A stretch of DNA of 64,000 bases from Roseovarius sp. (GTDB lineage Bacteria; Pseudomonadota; Alphaproteobacteria; Rhodobacterales; Rhodobacteraceae), in the NCBI RefSeq assembly GCF_027019125.1, contig NZ_JALUXE010000002.1, forward strand, positions 1 through 64,000. Direction: 5' to 3'. Below, piece after piece: positions 56,582 through 57,970 of this stretch. How positions within the stretch are numbered: position 1 is the first letter of the stretch; each line of letters begins with the position of its first letter. The notes below the pieces were generated by a model that ran no database searches, had not been told where the DNA came from, and was given only the letters and a program-made list of their open reading frames with translations. A program made the translations under genes and the position numbers.

Positions 56582-56943
56582 TGAGCTGGGCAGGCCTTGC
56601 CATAGCGCTTTCGGGCGCGGGGGTGCTGGTGACGGGGGCGTTGGCCGCTCTCTTCCTGCGCGACCCGGTGGCAGGGATGGTGGCCACAACCCATCGCGCC
56701 GAGCAATTGCCGCAGGTGATGGCCAATCGCTATGTGGCGATGCTGGTGCTGGCGTTGGGCGCGACCCTCTATGGGGATATGAAGGTGATCGCCCTGCTTT
56801 TTGCCGCGTTTTCCTATATGGCGTTTCACGACGCGTGGATCTATGCGCGGGCTGGGCAGGCGGTGGCCAAGCATATCGGCGCGGGGATTGCCGCATTGAT
56901 CGTGGTCGTGGTGGCGAGTTTGGCGATGGGGCAGTCTGTATGA
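56581..56943 (+). CDS. 120-residue membrane protein inside the nuo operon
   Basis: 120 residues, three to four membrane segments (~5-28, ~48-63, ~66-80 and ~95-115). A polar loop (R-D-P-V-A-G-M-V-A-T-T-H-R-A-E-Q) follows the first. The start shares a base with the nuoD stop and the end overlaps the next gene by four bases. The function is not recognised. It could be a family-specific complex I accessory or an unrelated passenger protein. Confidence 0.75.
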   Translation: MSWAGLAIALSGAGVLVTGALAALFLRDPVAGMVATTHRAEQLPQVMANRYVAMLVLALGATLYGDMKVIALLFAAFSYMAFHDAWIYARAGQAVAKHIGAGIAALIVVVVASLAMGQSV

Positions 56944-57692
56944 GGGGTTTGGTTACACTGTTGCTTTGTACCTTGCCGGTCATGGGGCAGGCGCAGGCTG
57001 TGTCTTCGGAACGGATCGAGGAATTCGTGGGTGTCATGGCGCAGTATGGCTGTCGCATGTCGCCCTATCAGGCGGACAAGGTGATGCCCGAGGCCGGTTT
57101 CGCGGACAAGGATGAGACCAAGGCCATCACCGAGCAGCTGGTGAGCGAAGAGCGGGCGCGCATCCTTGATGGTCAGCTTGTGGTTTTTGGCGGTGTTTGC
57201 GGCGGCAAGCTGGATTATTCGGGGCGCGAGCGGTTTTTCGCGGCGATTGCCGACAATGATTGCGTGATGACCATCGACGAGGCCAAGCATCTGTTGCCGC
57301 GTGTGGGCGTCGAGATGACCGAAGTGCGGATGTTGATGGACAAGATGGAGCGGATGGCGGAAATCCGTGTGTCCTCGGATCAGAAGGCCGTGTTTCTGGA
57401 ACAGAGCCTGTGCGACAAGTTCAAGGGCCTGTCGGCGGATATGATGTCCAGCAACCCCGAGATTACCGCGCCGCAGCGTGGGCCGGAGGAACTGCGCGTC
57501 GATTTCATCGCTTATATGAAAAGCGCAGGCTGCCGTCTGACCCGCGCCGAGGCTGATATCCAGCTGCCGGCGGCCGGGTTCACCACCAAGGAATTGCGCC
57601 CCGTTATTGGCAAGATGTTGCAAGAGGGCGAGGCGGTGATGCACACCGACGATGACTCGCTTTCGCTTTCAGAAGAGGTGTGTTCGCAATGA
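56940..57692 (+). CDS. Secreted protein with three copies of a two-cysteine domain
   Basis: 250 residues. The signal peptide is ~1-20 (G-Q-A-Q-A). The mature protein contains three homologous units, each F-x-x-x-[MI]-x-x-x-x-C-x-[ML]-[ST]-x9-P-x-x-G-[FV], then a helical stretch, then a closing Cys. Cys pairs are 38/87, 108/158 and 198/248, spaced 49, 50 and 50. Pro is at Cys+12 and Gly at Cys+15 in all three. Each pair is probably a disulfide. The lipoprotein gene directly after has a fourth unit. The function is unknown; a periplasmic site beside the nuo operon suggests a role in assembly, sensing or envelope structure. It overlaps both neighbours by ATGA. Confidence 0.78.
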   Translation: MRGLVTLLLCTLPVMGQAQAVSSERIEEFVGVMAQYGCRMSPYQADKVMPEAGFADKDETKAITEQLVSEERARILDGQLVVFGGVCGGKLDYSGRERFFAAIADNDCVMTIDEAKHLLPRVGVEMTEVRMLMDKMERMAEIRVSSDQKAVFLEQSLCDKFKGLSADMMSSNPEITAPQRGPEELRVDFIAYMKSAGCRLTRAEADIQLPAAGFTTKELRPVIGKMLQEGEAVMHTDDDSLSLSEEVCSQ

Positions 57693-57970
57693 TCACCGCA
57701 CGGATTGCGGCCTTGGCCGCGTTTGGTTTTCTTGCAGGCTGCGCCCTGCCGCCCGAGGGTGTGGGCCAGGAGGGCATCGCGCGCTATGACGCTGCGGCAA
57801 AGTCGCTGGGATGCCAGCTTGTGACCGAACCCGACTATCTGGCCGCCGAAATCCAGACCGGGCTAGAGCGGCAGCAATTGCTTGATATCACCGCCTATAA
57901 ACTGTCCTCGGGCGGAGCCGTTCGGCTGCCTGATGGGGGCGTGAAACTGACTACAGGAGCCTGTGCCTGA
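57689..57970 (+). CDS. Lipoprotein with one copy of the same two-cysteine domain
   Basis: 93 residues starting M-I-T-A-R-I-A-A-L. The lipobox is L-A-G-C with Cys18. The mature part has Cys42 and Cys92, 50 apart, and G-L-x-x-x-Q-L-x-x-I-x3-K-L-x-x-G-x-A-V (58-78), matching G-F-x-x-x-E-L-x-x-V-x3-M-L-x-x-G-x-A-V of the third unit in the preceding protein. This indicates a common origin. It would be anchored to the inner or outer membrane facing the periplasm. It overlaps the preceding gene by ATGA and is two bases before nuoE. Confidence 0.78.
   Translation: MITARIAALAAFGFLAGCALPPEGVGQEGIARYDAAAKSLGCQLVTEPDYLAAEIQTGLERQQLLDITAYKLSSGGAVRLPDGGVKLTTGACA

Follow-up and report, generated by a model that had tools for sequence, protein, structure and literature searches.

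The 64,000-nucleotide stretch of Roseovarius sp. DNA analysed here (the window; contig NZ_JALUXE010000002.1, positions 1 to 64,000) contains the nuo operon, which encodes complex I. Between nuoD (55361..56581), an open reading frame (ORF) whose homologues flank the same gap in other loci, and nuoE (57973..59169), identified by a Pfam match, lies a slot holding genes for two proteins that are predicted to be exported and are made of small two-cysteine units. An initial annotation of the sequence had placed this domain family within a respiratory operon; its address is, more specifically, the nuoD-nuoE gap. All features of the slot and its two borders are on the + strand.

Results

The slot genes

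The first exported protein, P0001, has 250 residues (56940..57692) and was characterised from its ORF, 34 relatives (alignment A1) and a structural model (m5f3be3fea49a). Residues 1-20 (56940..56999), ending in AQA, are a likely signal peptide by sequence; this region is variable in A1 and of low confidence in the model. Three units follow: unit 1 at residues 23-88 (57006..57203), with Cys38 (57051-57053) and Cys87 (57198-57200); unit 2 at residues 95-160 (57222..57419), with Cys108 (57261-57263) and Cys158 (57411-57413); and unit 3 at residues 182-250 (57483..57689), with Cys198 (57531-57533) and Cys248 (57681-57683). They were delimited using the sequence, A1, profile-profile comparison and the model.

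The second protein, P0002, is a lipoprotein of 93 aa (57689..57970; ORF, 63 relatives in alignment A2, model m44cade0986cc). Cys18 of its lipobox LAGC (57740..57742) is, by sequence, the likely site of lipid attachment, with Ala at +2, and its single unit occupies residues 27-93 (57767..57967), with Cys42 (57812-57814) and Cys92 (57962-57964). The start was taken as the ATG at 57689, the alternative in the ORF list being a GTG at 57680 (96 aa). This ATG overlaps the stop codon of P0001 by 4 nt (ATGA), and the ATG of P0001 overlaps by 4 nt the stop codon of orf120 (56581..56943). The latter encodes a small membrane protein sharing the slot, with a weak match to PF14087 (DUF4267) that is below the cut-off (E 1.1e-4); orf120-like ORFs recur in other nuoD-nuoE slots. 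The nearest named relatives of both exported proteins are from Roseovarius.

Four homologous units

The initial annotation had described three tandem units and a fourth in the lipoprotein, with a Cys-Cys spacing of 49-50, and this description stands: the spacing is 49 for Cys38/Cys87 and 50 for Cys108/Cys158, Cys198/Cys248 and the lipoprotein pair Cys42/Cys92. Pro at Cys+12 and Gly at Cys+15 are also present in the three tandem units, as claimed (P50/G53, P120/G123 and P210/G213). The quoted helix pattern has its best fit in unit 3 and the lipoprotein. The six mature cysteines of P0001 are invariant across 35 aligned sequences (P0001 and its 34 relatives, 48-92% identical), as are C42 and C92 across the 64 aligned lipoproteins of A2, in which C18 is nearly so (at least 90%).

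Profile-profile comparison gave E-values of 2.2e-8 for units 1 and 2, 3.1e-11 for units 1 and 3 and 1.8e-13 for units 2 and 3, and on sequence comparison it is beyond doubt that the three units of P0001 are mutually homologous. The lipoprotein unit gave weaker values against units 1, 2 and 3 in a first comparison (E 7e-4, 0.01 and 0.018). As the iterated unit model had absorbed lipoprotein-like units, scrubbed models served as a control: seeds that the lipoprotein model could detect, even at a threshold as loose as E 1, were removed. The lipoprotein matched the broader scrubbed unit profile at E 2.8e-5 (score 25.4), against scores of at most 15.0 for 40 column shuffles and 8.5 for the reversed profile. 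Scrubbed models recovered 6 to 12 of the 64 lipoproteins at E <1e-3, the best decoy being at 1.1; P0002 alone was matched weakly (E 0.03 to 0.64). Intermediate sequences, for example at loci L083, L063 and L081, match both the unit and the lipoprotein models. On the combined strength of the matches within the lipoprotein family, the profile comparison, the intermediate sequences and a shared predicted fold, we assign the lipoprotein to the same domain family. It is almost certain that the two slot genes encode one domain family, with four units here.

Predicted fold and disulfide

AlphaFold2 predicted one shared fold for all four units, rather than different ones. The predicted topology of each unit is helix-strand-helix-helix-strand-strand, which is the winged-helix order, and the unit models superpose on solved winged helices, the structural matches being mainly DNA-binding members. 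On the basis of the models, the units very probably fold as winged helices. The conserved cysteine pairs, taken with the predicted topology, make it quite likely that each unit is closed by a disulfide from a Cys just before strand 1 to a Cys just after strand 3. Among 66 slot units both cysteines are present in 65, with a spacing of 46-52, most commonly 50 (32 units) and then 49 (17), a count to be read with the caution that the profile itself rewards Cys.

Status in databases and literature

In library scans the units were not assigned to any Pfam, NCBIfam or PDB family, and a sequence search of the PDB turned up no relative for P0001 (best E 0.63) and none for P0002. Weak Pfam matches to the MarR, SelB-wing and F-93 families were seen among 68 members, with best E-values, the only measure used here, of 0.012, 0.005 and 0.026 respectively. 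For DUF2059, the UniRef name of one relative (P0015), no Pfam match was obtained with any of 35 members (E<=0.05).

Several candidate links were rejected. Matches of profile A6 to TALE and designed helical repeats (E down to 5e-10) were taken as composition artefacts, and no stretch passes alone. In the PDB, profile A5, built from 30 diverse units, had its best match to a designed protein, covering 29 positions (E 1.6e-4). A PepSY/YpeB link was considered for the UniRef name of two Shimia relatives; no PepSY model is among the Pfam rows listed, which cover 25 of 41 families.

Relatives in public databases are named either hypothetical protein or NADH dehydrogenase subunit E (P0079, P0113), and the latter names look as though they were transferred from neighbour genes. 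No description of the slot genes was found in the openly licensed literature (CC0, CC BY, CC BY-SA), older subscription papers on Rhodobacter and Paracoccus operons lying outside this scope. The proposal of an undescribed family of small two-cysteine periplasmic domains is upheld by the lack of a clear library match and by the export signals, but not as regards the fold, which is predicted to be the well-known winged helix. The family looks undescribed, as do its export and its constant position in the operon.

Distribution and genomic address

A search of genomes with profile A5 gave matches in 100 of 295 genomes of the Rhodobacteraceae at E 0.01 (99 of 294 genera), and in more than 50 genera of this family the nuoD-nuoE gap encodes one to ten units. 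In a class-wide sample, four of 289 genomes matched at 0.001; three belong to the same family and the fourth, outside it, is a weak partial match.

Among the matches listed, 72 of 80 lie within 4 kb of nuoE and 56 of 58 genomes have an in-slot copy; the 80 are the listed A5 matches with a listed nuoE position and include the window's own four. The remaining eight are off-slot copies, and the neighbours in L249-L254, by eye, are not obviously respiratory. Of the first 59 loci, 56 show nuoD and/or nuoE; in one of the others the match falls within a long slot protein, and the last two are outside the operon. A six-frame scan of 80 named nuo loci found 23 units, all in the nuoD-nuoE gap and none elsewhere in the fetched stretch.

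When 160 gaps were compared, 52 contained units, 51 were of 60 nt or less, 32 were of 61-250 nt and 25 were longer without a unit. Each half of this sample has its own bias: the first 80 are roughly every second row of the listed part of 286 nuoE matches, ordered by resemblance to the window, with some loci close to contig ends replaced, and the named 80 are the best matches to NuoE of Paracoccus denitrificans and so are rich in Paracoccus. In the longer unit-free gaps there is often a gene for a membrane protein resembling that of orf120, or there are other ORFs. Two slots in which the profile finds nothing contain exported ORFs whose cysteines are spaced (L093:3205-3567 and L103:2798-3928); from their sequences, these may be decayed or very divergent units.

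Copy number and slot products

One unit is found in 52 of 58 slot ORFs, two in four and three in two. Longer arrays also occur: in genome G004 nine units lie in one 810-residue frame, and G206 has nine in an 872-residue frame and one in a separate ORF, together with a further weak unit (E 0.008). Slots L063, L083, L132 and L219 have two or three separate one-unit genes. As both arrangements occur, the family grows by tandem genes and by fused repeats. The soluble and the membrane-bound forms proposed in the initial annotation both exist, but their pairing in one slot is not general, since most occupied slots encode one protein, either soluble or a lipoprotein.

All 58 slot products have a hydrophobic N-terminus at the chosen start, a count that leans towards export because the start-choosing script favours such an N-terminus, and at least 30 have a lipobox. 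Beyond residue 22, none of the 58 carries a net positive charge. The mature three-unit protein has a net charge of -14 and a pI of 4.7, and the lipoprotein a net charge of -3 and a pI of 4.6.

Other genes of the operon

nuoA (at 53670), nuoB and nuoC (between nuoA and nuoD) and nuoF (60120-61415) were assigned by homology and by the usual operon order. Promoter and terminator scans over 55200-58200 gave no more matches than shuffled sequence.

Between nuoE and nuoF, and separate from the slot domains, 59205-59879 encodes a 224-aa helix-hairpin-helix protein that is a homologue of protein-O (8yy9_O, E 1.6e-44). NuoE also matches this protein-O chain, through a helix-hairpin-helix-like extension at its C-terminus (residues 250-398), which brings the copies of this domain in the operon to two. 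Further downstream are a small exported lipoprotein (61406-61765) and an exported DUF5333 protein (61890-62300; PF17267, E 2.4e-36). Elsewhere, a lipoprotein-like ORF lies between nuoG and nuoH (L261:6320-6709), and the nuo cluster of P. denitrificans (L140) has a protein-O relative at 5760-6383 and a DUF5333 gene at 8193-8522. The window's own genome (G000, contig C30) has two matches to the photosynthetic reaction-centre family PF00124, so this Roseovarius sp. is likely to be a phototroph.

Discussion

A proposed periplasmic module for complex I

The reading that we tentatively favour is that the slot domains are periplasmic protein-binding modules aiding the assembly or stability of complex I; that complex I itself is the client is put forward just as cautiously. 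The domain is acidic and predicted to lie outside the cytoplasm, so its winged helix would bind proteins rather than DNA. Winged helices also act elsewhere as protein-binding modules, as in the cullin WHB domain and UFL1/DDRGK1. In many loci the start and stop codons of slot genes overlap with those of adjacent genes. The slot proteins would be translated together with nuoD and nuoE, and their amount would follow that of complex I. As their dose would be tied to complex I in this way, the likeliest client would be its periplasmic face, or a supercomplex holding it. With its multiple units, the soluble form would make a bridge between several contacts; as a lipoprotein, the domain would be anchored at a membrane.

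Four sets of observations count against a role in complex I. The lengths of the membrane-arm subunits do not track the domain, the only difference being a small uncorrected one for NuoM (P 0.017). P. denitrificans (L140), the member of the family for which complex I structures exist, has no nuoD-nuoE gap and hence an empty slot. Asp at the +2 position of the lipoproteins is rare (2 of 61 and 3 of 30); in E. coli a lipoprotein without Asp at +2 goes to the outer membrane, and by this rule, which may not hold in this family, most slot lipoproteins would leave for the outer membrane. Finally, protein-O, the product of an uncharacterised accessory gene from the same operon and family (Dinoroseobacter shibae), has been shown to be a subunit of RC-LH1 (PMC12079452), so extra genes of a nuo cluster need not encode complex I subunits. 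The same is suggested by P. denitrificans, as the abstract of the cryo-EM study of its complex I lists neither its protein-O relative nor DUF5333 as a subunit.

Alternative explanations

Ranking close behind, and also possible, is that the gap between nuoD and nuoE, being permissive and well expressed, takes in genes for small exported proteins, and that the domain acts in another part of the envelope, such as the outer membrane, without touching complex I. The varied content of the slot across the 160 loci (units, short gaps, other ORFs), the eight off-slot copies among the 80 matches listed and the scarcity of Asp at +2 would all be expected of such a passenger. Against it, no unit was found elsewhere in the fetched nuo stretch of the 80 named loci, and 56 of the 58 genomes with a listed nuoE have an in-slot copy; a mere passenger should turn up more often at other well-expressed sites.

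It is rather unlikely that the domains are subunits or assembly factors of another bioenergetic complex needed in step with complex I. Protein-O of RC-LH1, encoded between nuoE and nuoF, provides a precedent (PMC12079452), but PF00124 is no commoner in unit carriers (42 of 100) than in other genomes (80 of 195; odds ratio 1.04, P 0.90, phylogeny ignored) and no PDB chain from respiratory or photosynthetic complexes matches the family.

Co-translational export of the slot protein might instead sense and tune the translation of nuoE. CutF of Rhodobacter capsulatus, from the same bacterial family, is such a small exported protein, tuning the downstream cutO (PMC9973294), and like the slot proteins it is translated immediately before another gene of its operon. 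In 18 of 52 slots the last unit gene and nuoE share 1 base, and in a further seven the unit gene ends within 30 nt of nuoE, giving 25 slots in which the stop codon overlaps or nearly touches the nuoE start; in the other 27, however, it lies further away. CutF is reported to act through a motif that binds Cu and a stalling-like motif at its C-terminus, whereas the slot proteins consist of folded two-cysteine units, often in tandem, and up to ten conserved folded units would be superfluous in a sensor peptide. In addition, no proline is found near the C-termini of P0001 and P0002, the two proteins checked, and RNA folding around the start of nuoE is only slightly stronger than in shuffled sequence (z -1.8). 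Such a sensor is thus improbable. Most bacterial winged helices are regulators that bind DNA, and the mainly DNA-binding structural matches would imply the same here, but such a role is very improbable indeed given the signal peptides or lipoboxes, the conserved cysteine pairs and the absence of any net positive product among the 58.

Relation to known systems

The predicted topology and structural matches relate the units to F93 of STIV, F-93 of SSV1, the MarR family, SelB, UFL1/DDRGK1 and the cullin WHB domain; SelB and UFL1/DDRGK1, like the slot repeats, also have winged helices in tandem. Unlike these known winged helices, the slot units are predicted to be extracytoplasmic, are acidic, have one conserved cysteine pair each and show no clear family-level sequence match.

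Mitochondrial complex I carries CHCH subunits in the intermembrane space, with two CX9C motifs in a helical hairpin. If the favoured role in complex I is correct, the slot proteins would resemble them in being P-side accessory proteins of the enzyme that are held by disulfides. They differ in having one cysteine pair per unit, 46-52 residues apart (65 units), no CX9C pairs and no sequence match. A bolder and doubtful extension of the complex I reading is that the Rhodobacteraceae have evolved a P-side accessory layer of their own, consisting of disulfide-locked winged-helix beads, 1-10 per protein or locus, supplied from the nuoD-nuoE gap in step with complex I. This layer would be a convergent counterpart of the disulfide-held intermembrane-space subunits of mitochondria, and a rare instance of a DNA-binding fold being redeployed, in repeats, as a periplasmic module.

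Among bacterial enzymes, alphaproteobacterial complex I is the closest model for its mitochondrial counterpart, and to our knowledge the accessory genes in its operons have received little attention so far. A domain family predicted to be exported and found at one fixed gap in many genera, in one to ten copies, offers a ready genetic test of the roles of such genes. An exported, disulfide-closed repeat would also be an unusual use of the very common winged-helix fold and, if its partner is complex I, the family would represent a P-side factor that evolved outside mitochondria.
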